Virus record (IMG/VR): IMGVR_UViG_3300021478_000254
Span: 1 to 32,447 of that record
Length of the DNA: 32,447 nt
Direction: 5' to 3' (one strand)
Source of the DNA: a virus
In this document: positions 12,341 through 32,447 of the stretch, one piece after another
Position numbering within the stretch: the stretch's first letter is position 1
Layout: every line of letters begins with the position of its first letter
The notes under the pieces: generated by a model
The model's input: the letters and a program-made list of their open reading frames with translations, nothing else
Told to the model about the DNA's origin: nothing
Database searches by the model: none
Program-made: the position numbers and the translations under genes

Positions 12341-13414
12341 TTAAGGTAGAGGTGAAGACGCTCCTTGAATACAAACCTTGTCTTGAGGCGCCACATGCGC
12401 TCTCTTGTTCCCCACCGTGTTGGCGGTATCCCAAACATCAATATCTACAAGCGCATGTTTAATAAGTTGACGTGTCAGACCTGGATCTGAAGATAATGTT
12501 TGGAGATAAGAAATCTTAAATTCAATCGTCTTTTTCTGAGCTATGGCACTTAATTCAGCTTGTGCGTGTTTTTCATCAAGTATAATTGGCATATTCATAA
12601 TACCAAACAAACCTACTTCCATGCTATATTGAACAACAAAATTTAAAAAACCAATCATATCGTTATTAGCTACTCCATATGTAGTAACTTCAACAGTATC
12701 ACAAACTAATTGGGAACTCATACTAGTTCCACTAATTAGTGGAAAAGCTTGCAATGCTTTTGATTCTTCTATATGAATTGCAGCATATGGAGGCGGTTGA
12801 TTATCTGGAACAAGAAATGAAGGAAATATATTTTTAATTGGACAAATAGGACCGCCAGTGTAATCTGGCATATAAGTTGCAAACGATAACCAAATTGGCA
12901 AAGAATTTGTAATTATCAACTTATTTGCTAAAGAGTTTAAAACATCAATATCATCTATAATTTGGGTACTCATAATAGAAGTAACAGCAACTCCCAAATA
13001 ATGATATAAATCTGCCTGTTGAAAATATTTACCTTGTGAACTAAATGAAAAACGAATTCCTTTATAATTAGCCAGATACATAAATTGAGGATTAATTTGA
13101 TTAAATGTGTCTACCTGGGTTAACGCTGTAAATACAACAGTATTCAGAGAAATAGTTGATTCTTGTTCTTGTTCAGTTTCTACTGAATAATGTAATGCTC
13201 CTTGAATGTTTAATGTAGTTGGAGGATCACCTACACTTGGATGTGCCACATTCATATTAACCCAAAAAATAAATCCATCTAATGGAAGAACTATTCTTTT
13301 ATAAAGTGTGAAAGTAATTGTTTGATTTGCATCAAGTGTATTAACACCTGCCTCAAGTATAGCACCAAGAGGTGGTTTTGTATTACTATTAATTGCTTCA
13401 TTAATAGTAGTCAT
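12341..13414 (-). CDS. Structural protein, probably neck or tail terminator
   Basis: 357 residues; its start overlaps the upstream stop as ATGA. The N-terminal third is beta-rich and holds ILEAGVNTLDANQTITFTLY and VLPLDGFIFWVNMNVAHP (about 20-60), a stretch I recognise as conserved among proteins found just before sheath genes in contractile-tail prophages. LHYSVETEQEQESTISLNTV and YFQQADLYHYLG are further conserved patches. The length and location, between the small neck protein and the sheath, suggest a neck, tail terminator or sheath-linked collar protein. No enzyme motif is seen; function is inferred from order. Confidence 0.45.
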   Translation of the reverse strand: MTTINEAINSNTKPPLGAILEAGVNTLDANQTITFTLYKRIVLPLDGFIFWVNMNVAHPSVGDPPTTLNIQGALHYSVETEQEQESTISLNTVVFTALTQVDTFNQINPQFMYLANYKGIRFSFSSQGKYFQQADLYHYLGVAVTSIMSTQIIDDIDVLNSLANKLIITNSLPIWLSFATYMPDYTGGPICPIKNIFPSFLVPDNQPPPYAAIHIEESKALQAFPLISGTSMSSQLVCDTVEVTTYGVANNDMIGFLNFVVQYSMEVGLFGIMNMPIILDEKHAQAELSAIAQKKTIEFKISYLQTLSSDPGLTRQLIKHALVDIDVWDTANTVGNKRAHVAPQDKVCIQGASSPLP

Positions 13415-14505: not shown

Positions 14506-14814
14506 CTATGGGGTAGTAATAACTACCCATGCGCCAGCTTGTCGCGCGTACATTTGCCCATCATTGGGTGCATCTTCAAGTCCATCAACTCCTGCTGGAC
14601 CTTCTGGACCTATTTGACCTTCTGGACCTGGATCGCCTTGCGGACCTTGAGGCCCCTCTGGACCTGGTTCACCTTGCGGACCTTGGGGTCCTTCTGGACC
14701 TGGAGGACCTGCTGGACCTGCTGGACCTGGAGGACCTGCTGGGCCTACACTCATAGTTTTATGTTCATAATAACCTATGCCGCCGTCACGGCCTGGACCT
14801 GGGCTAAATGGCAT
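14506..14814 (-). CDS. Collagen-like repeat protein (late operon)
   Basis: 102 residues from ATG 14814, which overlaps the preceding stop as TGATG and has GGAG seven bases upstream; an in-frame ATG at 14826 is less likely. Residues 24-80 consist of 19 uninterrupted G-X-Y triplets ([18 protein letters not shown]), which fits a collagen triple helix. The C-terminus, [15 protein letters not shown], resembles a segment common in phage fibre proteins and may trimerise the rod. It probably forms a thin virion fibre or collar whisker. A shorter collagen-like gene is encoded at 29937-30269 on the other strand. Confidence 0.75.
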
Positions 14815-19987: not shown

Positions 19988-20244
19988 TATTGCGCCTCCG
20001 TAACAGGTGGCTCCACTTCAGGTTCAGGGAATGAACCAGGATAAAGTTTGTTGACATATGCCTCAGCATCAGCACGTTCAACAGTTTGGATTGGCAAAAC
20101 ACCATTTCTTCTGATTTCTGGACCGCCCATCCAAGGCGGACGATAATATACCCACATACCATAATGGTCCTGTTCTAGTTCCATTGGCGGTCGTGTAGGT
20201 GATAGTTCAAAAATTCGGGTTTTGGGTGTTTTCTCTTCTGTCAT
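19987..20244 (-). CDS. Small Pro-rich protein after the portal gene
   Basis: 85 residues from ATG 20244, with AGGAGGAA a few bases upstream. The middle holds aromatic residues and prolines (HYGMWVYYRPPWMGGPEIRR, 27-46). The C-terminus is acidic and Pro-rich (PEPEVEPPVTEAQ). Its stop overlaps the next start as TAATG. No family is recognised. It is placed between portal and protease, so it is most likely a small head protein. Confidence 0.5.
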   Translation of the reverse strand: MTEEKTPKTRIFELSPTRPPMELEQDHYGMWVYYRPPWMGGPEIRRNGVLPIQTVERADAEAYVNKLYPGSFPEPEVEPPVTEAQ

Positions 20245-25024: not shown

Positions 25025-25056
25025 ATAAAGCAATAAAAGCAAGCTTGGAGGGCCCA

Positions 25057-25584
25057 GTGCTGGATCTGTTCGCATCACAAACACAAGATGATTTCAAATG
25101 GGTAGTAGCCGTATTTGCTAATACTGGCGCAGTAGAAGTCATTAGAAGAGCCAATGACGTACCTCTTAGAACATTTTATCCAATACGATTTAACGTCAAA
25201 GGCGAGCCAATTCCCTTGATGCGCCCATATTTATTCATAGAATTTCGTAACACTGTGACAGCTCAAATATGTCGCAGTACAAGAAAGTTCATTAAAGTGA
25301 TTACAATGCGTGACGATGAAGGAATAGAATATCCAGTAATGGTACGTAAAAATGCGATAGACGAACATTTATCATTAATGTTAGCTGGTAGATTTAACAG
25401 TAAAACTCATACGCGACGCTATTACGGAAAAGGATCAATAGTCAGAGTATTAGATGGAATTTTTATGGATAAGAGGGTCCGTTTGGATACTGATATAACT
25501 CCAGATATGCCTGGTAATCGTAAGGTAACAATAGATATTAATGGTATGAAGGGTAGCATTGAGATTTGGAAATTGGCACTATAA
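25057..25584 (+). CDS. NusG-like (NGN/KOW) transcription factor
   Basis: 175 residues from GTG 25057, with GGAGG five bases upstream; a TTG at 25045 overlaps that site and is less likely. The N-terminal part FKWVVAVFANTGAVEVIRRA followed by FYPIRF and MRPYLFIEFRN (read about 13-75) matches the NGN fold: an opening W-V strand, a strand with YP, and the RP-YLF-EF strand. Later, KGSIVRVLDGIFMDKRVRLD (about 126-145) reads as a KOW-type barrel. NusG/RfaH-type proteins bind RNA polymerase and promote elongation. It is the first gene after the divergent region, so it may control the rightward operon or the late genes. Confidence 0.6.
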   Translation: MLDLFASQTQDDFKWVVAVFANTGAVEVIRRANDVPLRTFYPIRFNVKGEPIPLMRPYLFIEFRNTVTAQICRSTRKFIKVITMRDDEGIEYPVMVRKNAIDEHLSLMLAGRFNSKTHTRRYYGKGSIVRVLDGIFMDKRVRLDTDITPDMPGNRKVTIDINGMKGSIEIWKLAL

Positions 25585-29027: not shown

Positions 29028-29223
29028 ATATGAGTGCGCCGCCTGTCATAAGGTCTACACCAAAGGAGTGTCGGATGAAGAGGCTCTGGCGGAAGCTGCG
29101 TCAATTTTTCCTACTGTACCGATTGAGGATACTTCATTGGTATGTGAGGACTGTTTTCAGAAAATGATGGCAGATATCAAAGCGCGCCATTGGGCATACC
29201 CAGATTTACCGGAGGATGAGTAA
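28924..29223 (+). CDS. Small CxxC...CxxC protein
   Basis: 99 residues from ATG 28924, which lies 100 bases inside the preceding gene in another frame; no start after that gene is available. Cys38/Cys41 (CAACHKVYTKGVSDEEALAE) and Cys74/Cys77 (CEDCFQKMM) form a zinc pair, with a pattern common in phage accessory proteins ('C-C-F-K/W-SDEEA...VCDDC'). The N-terminal 30 residues are basic and low complexity, perhaps because they share DNA with the previous gene. Function unknown. Confidence 0.55.
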   Translation: MAKTPGEPPAEKGSRKFKHPGLKLNKTKKKLRPNEYECAACHKVYTKGVSDEEALAEAASIFPTVPIEDTSLVCEDCFQKMMADIKARHWAYPDLPEDE

Positions 29224-29936
29224 TGCCATTCCAAAAATGTTCGTTCAAAGAAATGACTCATATACGGGTCAAGGGCCGCATTCATTTCGTCCGCCACAAA
29301 AGCAAAACCATCAATGGAACCAATGATGTTGTATTAGGAGACACCACTAGAATAGTATTGACTGAATATAGAATGAAAGAAAATCAAATTGAATTTCTTT
29401 TCTATACTGCTCCACCTCCAGGTCCAATATGGAATGATGTTGATAAAGAAATCATTTTAGCAGACATCGCCTACCTCAAACAACAAGAAATAGAGAACGG
29501 CAATTGGGCTAAGTGGGAAGCTGATCAAGCACAATGGAAGAGCTACAACGCAATCAGAGAGCTATCACATTCTGATCCAGATTACGGCAGAATGAGCAAT
29601 GATATTGTCAGAATCACTGTACGAGTTAGACATGATCCCCCAGATGTATTAGCTGGGAGGTTGCCAAATGGCGTTTACGTCGCCATACCCCGGCAGCGCC
29701 CAGTTACTGGAAACGTCACACCCAGCATATGGCATCTGTGCATAGGCCGTGAAGCCCAGAACGACGATATAGAGCGCGCCAATTGCTTGGATGAAGGCCA
29801 GCCAGGTCACCGTGGCTGCGGATGGTGCAGTTCATGTTTGAAGCCTAGATGGATGTGCAATCACGGATACTTCCAAGGCGAAGATCAGCCAAGATTTGAA
29901 GTACCTTGGCCACCACATTGGATGGAGAATGGATAA
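29223..29936 (+). CDS. Unknown accessory protein with Cys-rich C-terminus
   Basis: 237 residues from ATG 29223, overlapping the preceding stop as TAATG; GGAGG lies upstream. Residues 1-130 have a beta-rich start (HIRVKGRIHFVRHKSKTING) and then long helices (IILADIAYLKQQEIENG). The C-terminal part contains HLCIGREAQNDDIERANCLD and CGWCSSCLKPRWMCNHG (about 199-215), where several Cys and His may bind metal. I do not recognise a family. It is the longest unknown in the rightward operon. Confidence 0.6.
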   Translation: MPFQKCSFKEMTHIRVKGRIHFVRHKSKTINGTNDVVLGDTTRIVLTEYRMKENQIEFLFYTAPPPGPIWNDVDKEIILADIAYLKQQEIENGNWAKWEADQAQWKSYNAIRELSHSDPDYGRMSNDIVRITVRVRHDPPDVLAGRLPNGVYVAIPRQRPVTGNVTPSIWHLCIGREAQNDDIERANCLDEGQPGHRGCGWCSSCLKPRWMCNHGYFQGEDQPRFEVPWPPHWMENG

Positions 29937-30269
29937 ATGAAAAAGAAAGAGTTCAGAGAACAGCTACTCCAATTGATCGCTTCCATACGAATTCACGGCC
30001 CACAAGGTCCACCAGGACCAATGGGTCCAATGGGAGAGCGCGGCCCTCAAGGCATTCAAGGCCCTCCAGGACCGCTTGATGTAACCAACTATGAATTAGC
30101 AGAACAGTTCGCATGGCTAAAAAATGAAGTAGCTGTCATGAAAGCTGAGATCGACCACAACACTAAGCCGCGCCCAGAAAAAGAAGTGAGGAGGTTCCGT
30201 GAAAATAAAAGATTACAAACCAAAAAGCGAAGCAGAGGCCGTAGGGTGGTTGATGGAGGAAGCGTGTGA
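29937..30269 (+). CDS. Second collagen-like protein, in the early-type operon
   Basis: 110 residues from ATG 29937. A helical, basic N-terminus (KKKEFREQLLQLIASIRIH) leads to nine G-X-Y triplets (21-47: GPQ, GPP, GPM, GER, GIQ), then a predicted coiled coil (YELAEQFAWLKNEVAVMKAE, 52-71) and a basic tail that overlaps the next gene. Collagen-like parts are commonest in structural proteins, so its place far from the virion operon and on the opposite strand is unusual. It may be a virion component expressed separately. Confidence 0.6.
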   Translation: MKKKEFREQLLQLIASIRIHGPQGPPGPMGPMGERGPQGIQGPPGPLDVTNYELAEQFAWLKNEVAVMKAEIDHNTKPRPEKEVRRFRENKRLQTKKRSRGRRVVDGGSV

Positions 30270-31437: not shown

Positions 31438-31469
31438 CCCTTGCCCTCTTTCATCAGGAGCATCCTGTC

Positions 31470-31583
31470 ATGCGTCATGCCATCAAAGTCGCCAACGCCA
31501 TCTATGTGCCAACCATTGCCCTTGCCACAGCCACTGTGATCTGGACCGTGGTTCTCATCATCCACAGCAACTGGGGGTGGTGA
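31470..31583 (+). CDS. Very small membrane protein
   Basis: 37 residues from ATG 31470, with AGGAG eight to ten bases upstream. After a basic start (MRHAIKVANAIYV) it has a hydrophobic helix (TIALATATVIWTVVLII). It is followed by the next gene after one base (TGAGATG), so the two are probably translated together. It may form a pair with the next protein, for example in lysis or membrane exclusion; no family is recognised. Confidence 0.55.
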   Translation: MRHAIKVANAIYVPTIALATATVIWTVVLIIHSNWGW

Positions 31584-31584
31584 G

Positions 31585-31779
31585 ATGATTCTCATCCACT
31601 TCGCGGTTGGTCTCATCATCGTGACCGTGGTTTCAATGTTCTTCAGGAACAGTGCCAAACCAGACTCAGTCAAGCAAGCTGAGTGGGACGCCATGATTGA
31701 CGCCAAGTCCAGAGACAAACATGGCAGGAGACTGTCACTGGAGGAGTTTGCTGAACGCAACGCCAGAAACCAGCGATAA
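31585..31779 (+). CDS. Small membrane-anchored protein
   Basis: 64 residues from ATG 31585, with GGGGGTGG upstream. Residues 1-20 (MILIHFAVGLIIVTVVSMFF) form an N-terminal membrane helix, followed by a charged helical domain (SVKQAEWDAMIDAKSRDKHG, LEEFAERNARNQR). It has an anchor-plus-soluble-tail shape. The gene ends at the terminator at 31779-31800. A part in lysis (spanin-like or holin partner) is possible but not shown by any motif. Confidence 0.55.
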   Translation: MILIHFAVGLIIVTVVSMFFRNSAKPDSVKQAEWDAMIDAKSRDKHGRRLSLEEFAERNARNQR

Positions 31780-31800
31780 TGGGGCATCAGCCCCATTTTT
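31779..31800 (+). terminator. Rho-independent terminator
   Basis: ATGGGGC (31779-31785), loop ATCA, GCCCCAT (31790-31796), then TTTTT. A textbook stem with T-run, overlapping the stop of the preceding gene. It ends the rightward transcription unit. Confidence 0.85.
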
Positions 31801-31840
31801 CGTGACCATGAATCTCAAAAATTGACGTTCATTCATTGGC

Positions 31841-31985
31841 ATCAATGGCTGATGATTGTCAAACTGATTTCCCAATGGTTGATCCCAATATTTGATTCAA
31901 AAGTTGATGATTGATATTTGACCTTGGTGGCGCCCAATCAATGGCTGATGACCACCAATATGATTTCCCAATGGTTGATACCAAT
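31841..31985. repeat. Duplicated block, period 96 bases
   Basis: ATCAATGGCTGATGA occurs at 31841-31855 and 31937-31951. TGATTTCCCAATGGTTGAT occurs at 31865-31883 and 31961-31979. In both copies the two words are nine bases apart with different spacers, and CCAAT follows after one base. The distance between copies is 96 bases. Confidence 0.85.
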
Positions 31986-31996
31986 TACTGAATTGA

Positions 31997-32028
31997 TTAC
32001 TGATGGTTTACTGATGGTTTACTGATGG
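31997..32028. repeat. Tandem TTACTGATGG, three copies
   Basis: TTACTGATGG at 31997-32006, 32008-32017 and 32019-32028, i.e. period 11 with a single T between copies. The period is close to one helix turn, as in iterons bound by replication initiators. Confidence 0.8.
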
Positions 32029-32131
32029 ATGTGCCCACCAGCAGAGTGGTTACCATTGAACCATCAACCATTGATTGACCATCACCACCCACCAAAGACG
32101 CGCCACCATGGGATTCACTACCAGCTAAGCT

Positions 32132-32344
32132 GTCCTGTTAGTCCTGTTATTTTTCATATATAATAGGACATAAAAAGCGCAACGATTACAACAGGTTACG
32201 GCGACCAGTCCTGTTAGTCCTGTTTGTCCTGTTACCATTTTCATATGCGAGGCGTCTTTTTCATACCTCTTTCCCACCCATAACAGGACTGATCAATGGT
32301 GGCCGAAAAACCCTGCAATAACAAGGACTTAGCCTGTCCCGTTA
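32132..32344. repeat. GTCCTGTTA iteron-like cluster
   Basis: GTCCTGTTA at 32132-32140, 32141-32149, 32208-32216, 32226-32234, plus GTCCTGTTT at 32217-32225. Inverted copy TAACAGGAC at 32281-32289, and a one-mismatch copy GTCCCGTTA at 32336-32344. The two direct groups have a nine-base period and flank an AT-rich segment. Confidence 0.75.
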
Positions 32345-32365
32345 CGGTTTTTCAGAAACCGGACA

Positions 32366-32387
32366 AAACATATTTTCACTGTATAAT
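32366..32387 (+). promoter_or_regulatory. Weak promoter candidate at the right end
   Basis: TATAAT at 32382-32387. CGGACA lies 16 bases upstream (matches the -35 consensus at four positions). It may drive a gene beyond the window; this is a weak guess. Confidence 0.3.
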
Positions 32388-32447
32388 TAATTAGAATTCT
32401 CTATCTGGCTTATAGAGACTGAAATCAAAATCAGTATTTCCTTTAAG

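Follow-up and report, generated by a model that had tools for sequence, protein, structure and literature searches.

Results

Genomic context of the window

The analysed stretch of DNA, further referred to as the window, is the virus record IMGVR_UViG_3300021478_000254, a fragment of 32,447 bp. The terminase, portal, capsid, and baseplate genes lie on its minus strand, and small rightward genes extend up to position 31779, followed by a noncoding region with several families of repeats and by the 3′ end of a helicase gene (Table 1).

The relatives considered here are metagenome contigs. One of them, G001 (IMGVR_UViG_3300021171_000007, 79,611 bp), was the single contig matched in the exact scan for two tandem iteron units; it is collinear with the window and about 80% identical to it overall, the ends being permuted. 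Contig G002 (IMGVR_UViG_3300021478_000045, 47,760 bp) starts approximately 12 bp past the right end of the window (position 32447), within the same helicase gene, and its far end, when placed on G001, falls approximately where the window begins. Judging by these positions, the window and G002 probably are two halves of one genome with the joint length of about 80.2 kb, close to that of G001. This phage of about 80 kb has a contractile tail and its own DNA polymerase III alpha, ligase, and ThyX. Searches with ORF 31585–31779 or ORF 29223–29933 as handles found no relatives.

The first early gene of the window (25045–25584, plus strand) shows similarity to a transcription antiterminator of phages (phrog_6386, E 0.014) and is kept in G001. 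One of the early-region ORFs (29937–30269, plus strand, 110 aa) contains a collagen-like Gly-X-Y stretch, and a second region of collagen-type repeats is found among the late genes (14591–14746). The protein predicted at 67054–67776 of G001 ends in VPEPSTWAMLVAGFGLLAFLGVRRQRKD, which, by our own reading, looks like a PEP-CTERM sorting signal; to our knowledge, such a signal is unusual in a phage.

Table 1. Features of the noncoding region and its flanks (window coordinates), and hammerhead-like copies in relatives (contig named in the coordinate column).
Feature	Coordinates	Strand	Comment
Last rightward ORF before the noncoding region	31585..31779	+	64 aa, no assigned function
Terminator-like hairpin TGGGGCATCAGCCCCA-TTTTT, closes the rightward genes	31780..31800	+	By eye; similar hairpin in most relatives
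96-bp-spaced duplicated block, 72 bp	31841..32008	+	75% identical copies; not conserved in G001
GCGC..CCA-type box	31929..31936	+	By eye; others near 32031-32040 and 32100-32108
11-bp tandem TTACTGATGGT x 3.9	31985..32028	+	90% matches; not conserved in G001
Iteron block A, GTCCTGTTA x 2	32132..32149	+	Identical in L002/G001
AT-rich spacer TTTTTCATATATAATA, candidate unwinding element	32150..32165	.	80% AT in the 20-bp window from 32151; other relatives also AT-rich
Inverted iteron GTCCTATTA	32161..32169	-	47 bp before block B in the window, G001, G003, G030, G037
Conserved 38-bp core TAAAAAGCGCAACGATTACAACAGGTTACGGCGACCA	32170..32207	+	Alignment of seven relatives
Iteron block B, GTCCTGTTA, GTCCTGTTT, GTCCTGTTA	32208..32234	+	Three tandem units aligned in the window, G001, G003, G030, G006, G037
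CATTTTCATATG, with motif TTTTCATA, after block B	32235..32246	+	Recurs in most relatives
Inverted iteron GTCCTGTTA	32281..32289	-	Same place in G001, G003, G030
Degenerate unit GTCCCGTTA	32336..32344	+	Position not conserved
Last inverted iteron GTCCGGTTT	32356..32364	-	26 bp from the helicase stop
3′ end of the DUF5906/VapE-like SF3 helicase gene	32391..32447	-	Last 18 codons and stop, 57 bp
Hammerhead-like copies, G001	G001: 36208, 36937, 37244, 38370, 38941, 40197		
Hammerhead-like copies, G002	G002: 6131, 6934, 7435, 8103, 10018, 11570		
Hammerhead-like copies, other relatives	L081: 13938; L082: 11984, 12486, 12848, 13396; L083: 12415		

Structure of the repeat array

The initial annotation described three repeat families standing side by side at the right end of the window. 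All three are present, but only one of them, the GTCC family, aligns with the closest relative, G001. The 96-bp-spaced block (31841–31912 vs. 31937–32008) has 54 identical positions out of 72 (75%), the best of 300 shuffles, which here and below are first-order Markov sequences rather than exact dinucleotide shuffles, reaching 40 out of 72. The GTCC family, noted as GTCCTGTTA units around an AT-rich segment, is likewise real, and the array formed by it spans positions 32132–32364. Units that match GTCCTGTTA exactly or with one mismatch start at 32132+, 32141+, 32161−, 32208+, 32217+, 32226+, 32281−, 32336+, and 32356−; nine units with at most one mismatch to GTCC[GT]GTT[TA] were observed, compared to 0.43 expected and the maximum of three in 300 shuffles. 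Eight out of nine units, each 9 bp long and with the consensus GTCC[T/G]GTT[A/T], have fixed order, orientation, and spacing (++-+++--). Opposed groups of iterons flank the AT-rich spacer; the AT-rich stretches of the region are 32151–32170 and 32371–32400.

The array is the sole site of the window where an 8-mer is repeated at the 9–10-bp spacing and has an inverted copy within 250 bp, and the 8-mer GTCCTGTT has one other occurrence in the 32-kb window, at position 20167. In G001, two inverted iterons (AACAGGAC twice, 9 bp apart) are found at 13170–13187 in a structural gene; they are absent from the window and possibly arose by chance. To the left of the array, two to three GCGC..CCA boxes are seen by eye in the relatives. 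The hairpin at 31780–31800 is not among the matches of the terminator scan.

Helicase encoded next to the array

The array had been placed at the right end of the sequence, with a replication gene, for example, a primase or VapE-like one, expected beyond it. Its right boundary is the 3′ end of a gene rather than open sequence, and this gene is indeed a replication one: a DUF5906/VapE-like SF3 helicase, the remainder of which was found in the relatives. The C-terminus encoded in the window reads LKGNTDFDFSLYKPDREF before the stop and may be compared with LRGNTDFDFSLYKPDA, which ends the 494-aa helicase of L002/G001. Since the window includes the last 18 helicase codons, the array is immediately 3′ of this gene. 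The latter is transcribed toward the array, with 26 bp between the last iteron and the stop codon in the window, and likewise in relatives.

The 494-aa helicase matches Pfam DUF5906 (2e-13, above the cut-off); DUF5906 is the passing family, the VapE-like domain PF05272 scoring 22.0 bits, below its cut-off of 25. Matches of the helicase in PHROGs cover only C-terminal parts of phage DNA primase families. A fused TOPRIM primase was not found in Pfam at E up to 0.1, nor was a fused N-terminal prim/pol domain in Pfam or PHROGs at the same level. ORF 49213–50457 of G001, selected by eye as a candidate for the missing primase, is supported by neither Pfam nor PHROGs.

The AlphaFold2 model of the helicase, built from nine relatives, is of moderate confidence (pLDDT 67.8). 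The closest solved structures are the helicase region of the NrS-1 polymerase (Z 20.7) and SaPI5 PriRep1 (Z 17.3), and pox D5 is also among the structural matches, so that the fold is of the SF3/D5 type. Residues 355–463 are modeled as helices and a wing-like hairpin, and the last third of the protein would suit a winged helix.

Conservation of the array in relatives

The array was sought in the relatives of the capsid and those of the helicase. It is located 3′ of the helicase gene in G001, G003, G030, G006, and G037 (the latter also denoted L093), that is, in all five other distinct relatives with readable units, and a sixth one, G004, has a weaker array with two strong units only. Absence of the repeats from close relatives, which would have spoken against an origin, thus holds in part: it is seen in G001 for the 96-bp and 11-bp families, but not for the GTCC family.

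The sequences of the arrays have diverged in the relatives, and their geometry is kept. Counting from the first inverted unit, block B follows at +47 bp in the window, G001, G003, G030, and G037, the distal inverted unit, at +120 to +124 bp in the window, G001, G003, and G030, and the last inverted unit, at +195 to +199 bp in the window, G001, G003, G030, G006, and G037. In G006, the inverted iteron lies 47 bp ahead of the position of the more diverged first unit of block B, and the units share a changed letter (GTCTGCTTT, GTCTACTTT, GTCCGCTTT, GTCTGCTTA). The core TAAAAAGCGCAACGATTACAA.. between blocks A and B is recognizable in all aligned relatives (seven-relative alignment). The GTCC block of the window is 88% identical to that of G001, against about 80% overall, and the alignment of G001 with the window joined to G002 starts at the first GTCCTGTTA (32132) and runs unbroken over the helicase gene, at 81%; the 670 bp to the left of the array (31463–32131) do not align with G001.

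Similar arrays in unrelated elements

An unrelated phage contig, L105, contains an exact copy of the core sequence AAAGCGCAACGATTACA inside an iteron array of other sequence (TTTGCGGGG), and this array is located directly 3′ of a helicase-like gene (phrog_29234). Other matches to the core pattern, L100, L103, L106, L107, and L108, have no iterons or helicase, leaving L105 as the only relevant one. By our own estimate from the collection size, chance alone would give a handful of exact 17-mer matches, consistent with the five irrelevant ones; the placement of the L105 core within an array does not seem accidental. Exact matches to TTTCATATAWAATAGGAC other than G001 are without iterons.

Among homologs of the L105 helicase, opposed 9–10-bp iterons are found directly 3′ of the gene in an Azospirillum prophage, M. 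tardum pMt-1, pMNOD06, and the 6.5-kb plasmid pA32H2. The plasmid homologs L111 (Legionella) and L113 (Psychrobacter) have no match in the strict iteron scan; by eye, an inverted pair TTAACCCTCCC is seen in L113. In Bordetella phage BPP-1, 9-bp repeats GCCTCGTTT oppose each other two against two, and a single small gene separates them from the primase gene.

Cultured phages of the YuA group and others (M6, Pam3, RHph_I65, Bhz59, J2) also have DUF5906 primase-helicases. The gene there is inside a replication operon, and no such array was found within 6 kb; hence the arrangement is not universal. Phages sharing the capsid family only (PdC23, Chronis, vB_YenM) have lambda-like replication genes and no array. 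The seven control loci (M6, Pam3, RHph_I65, Bhz59, J2, PdC23, Chronis) yielded no comparable array and one chance match, in M6. Scans of host genomes gave nothing, and BLASTN searches with the array in phage, plasmid, and E. coli sequences yielded no meaningful match.

Hammerhead-like elements ahead of early genes in relatives

Five relatives contain 18 copies of an element of about 60 nt with the pattern GAYC-GAAAC-[stem III]-GUC-[stem I]-CUGANGA-GRUC (Table 1). This is a full hammerhead ribozyme core, in which three stems retain pairing through sequence changes and stem II is open (type II layout). The only Rfam match of the element is RF00008 at 20.1 bits, below the threshold. Most copies are followed by a short early gene, immediately preceding its ribosome-binding site and start codon, and this placement suggests that many early messages of these phages may have self-cleaving leaders. 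The pattern was not found in the window.

Discussion

The array changes together with the helicase

The phages compared allow us to see which gene the array follows. Relative to G001, the identities of the terminase small subunit and of the helicase are, respectively, 92 and 82% in G002, 89 and 38% in G003, 86 and 37% in G030, 69 and 33 or 34% in both G006 and L093, and 46 and 32% in G004. The capsid protein of the window shows 97% identity with its G003 counterpart and 96% with the G001 one; despite this likeness to both, the array of the window matches G001, and its iterons differ from those of G003. Hence, the array tracks the helicase rather than the terminase small subunit or the capsid. 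This joint change favors the helicase as the protein reading the sites.

The same comparison bears on the possibility that the array serves packaging, as a pac or cos site to which the terminase small subunit binds. Repeat arrays also occur at packaging sites, synteny of the small-subunit gene is kept in each of the seven relatives, with its start about 0.8–1.2 kb upstream of the helicase start, and the ends of the window and G002, about 12 bp apart at the array, could hint at a physical end. However, G001 and G003 have different iterons despite the high similarity of their small subunits, the sequence of G001 runs straight through the point where the window and G002 end, and related arrays are found beside helicase genes on plasmids, some of them with no phage genes in view. 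Taking this into account, together with the joint change of the array and the helicase, we consider packaging highly unlikely.

Still less likely is a transcriptional control region with operators of a regulator or early promoters situated between converging units. Tandem 9-bp sites are also typical of operators, and one weak promoter-like match is present at 32360–32387; but promoter-like matches do not exceed those in shuffles (one found, 1.7 expected), the genes flanking the array converge on it, no gene starts close by, and linkage of the array to the 3′ end of the helicase gene persists across unrelated elements.

The repeats might also act as RNA hairpins, in a structured RNA or in the 3′ untranslated region of the helicase transcript, given that inverted units could pair and that some relatives have a TTAATG..CATTAA hairpin after the helicase stop. 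We assign this a very low probability: no Rfam family matches at threshold (a weak sub-threshold match to RF02880 lies outside the array and was set aside), and direct tandem units at constant spacings are rather what would be expected of protein-binding sites in duplex DNA. Finally, decay of low-complexity noncoding DNA without function, perhaps true of the left part (31841–32030), for which there is no alignment with the closest relative, has a negligible chance for 32132–32364, where the GTCC block has retained 88% identity in phages with an overall identity of about 80% and the spacing is kept even where the iteron letters have changed.

Candidate replication origin and proposed mechanism

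An origin with initiator-binding repeats, as proposed in the initial annotation, thus gains support from the helicase gene itself and from retention of the array in relatives with this helicase. We believe that region 32132–32364 very probably is the replication origin of the phage of about 80 kb, its iterons being the sites predicted to bind the DUF5906 helicase that the phage itself encodes. The decisive part of the repeats is the GTCC family, not the 96-bp duplication or the 11-bp tandem; participation of the latter two families in the origin was considered and is unproven. The GC skew, suggested as a check, is uninformative because it follows gene direction: on G001 the minimum is near 23 kb, and no switch is seen at the array.

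We infer the following order of events. The helicase would dock on the iterons through its C-terminal winged-helix-like domain and assemble as rings on the two opposed iteron groups. It then might melt the AT-rich spacer and the conserved core and start unwinding, after which a primase and the phage DNA polymerase III alpha would take over.

The findings in unrelated elements may be generalized, if tentatively and with the chances somewhat short of even, to a widespread, modular class of swappable origin cassettes in phages, prophages, and plasmids. Such a cassette would consist of opposed clusters of 9-bp iterons, freely re-lettered from one element to another and typically ending in GTTT or GTTA, 3′ of varied SF3/D5 primase-helicase genes, sometimes with the iteron-independent core AAAGCGCAACGATTACAA, and would move with the helicase.

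For an uncultured phage family, the likely origin has been placed to approximately 250 bp and its predicted reader protein named. The re-lettered iterons together with their cognate helicases form a natural series for studying the DNA-recognition code of SF3 initiators. The layout seen around unrelated helicases on small plasmids suggests an approach to finding origins, namely, to look for opposed 9-bp repeats 3′ of a helicase gene.

Comparison with known systems

The origin of the archaeal plasmid pRN1 is a stem-loop 3′ of the primase-helicase gene (ORF904), and a similar stem-loop has been proposed 3′ of the BIP-1 replication gene (PMC4234260). As in pRN1 ORF904 and BPP-1/BIP-1, the candidate initiator element of the phage studied here is 3′ of a primase/SF3-helicase gene; in contrast to the large stem-loop of those systems, it is formed by iterons, and the BPP-1 repeats are separated from the primase gene by a small gene.

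The primase-polymerase-helicase of NrS-1 is one polypeptide with a prim/pol domain and recognizes the primase site TTTGGTTA (PMC8718748, PDB 6k9c). It is the best match to the helicase part both in sequence (1.8e-16) and in structure; unlike NrS-1, the helicase considered here has no fused prim/pol domain, and its iteron differs from TTTGGTTA.

The alpha protein and the iteron origin of phage P4 have also been described (PMC4234260). Origin binding by a helicase via a winged helix, as in P4 alpha, is the mechanism proposed here, although P4 alpha has a fused TOPRIM primase, whereas the 494-aa helicase has no detectable fused primase.

SaPI origins are located directly downstream of rep, and their iterons are read by the C-terminal domain of Rep; similarly, Cch2 of SCCmec binds repeats downstream of its own gene (PMC7581432). 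The differences from these systems are that the phage, of about 80 kb and with polymerase III alpha, ligase, and ThyX, is not a satellite, that the iteron sequence is other and an additional conserved core lies between the groups, and that the binding here is predicted only. The similarities are the SF3/D5-type helicase, the iterons directly 3′ of its gene, and the putative C-terminal DNA-binding domain. By analogy, the best reading of the locus would be an iteron origin for a self-loading superfamily-3 helicase, as in the SaPI, SCCmec Cch2, and P4 replicons.
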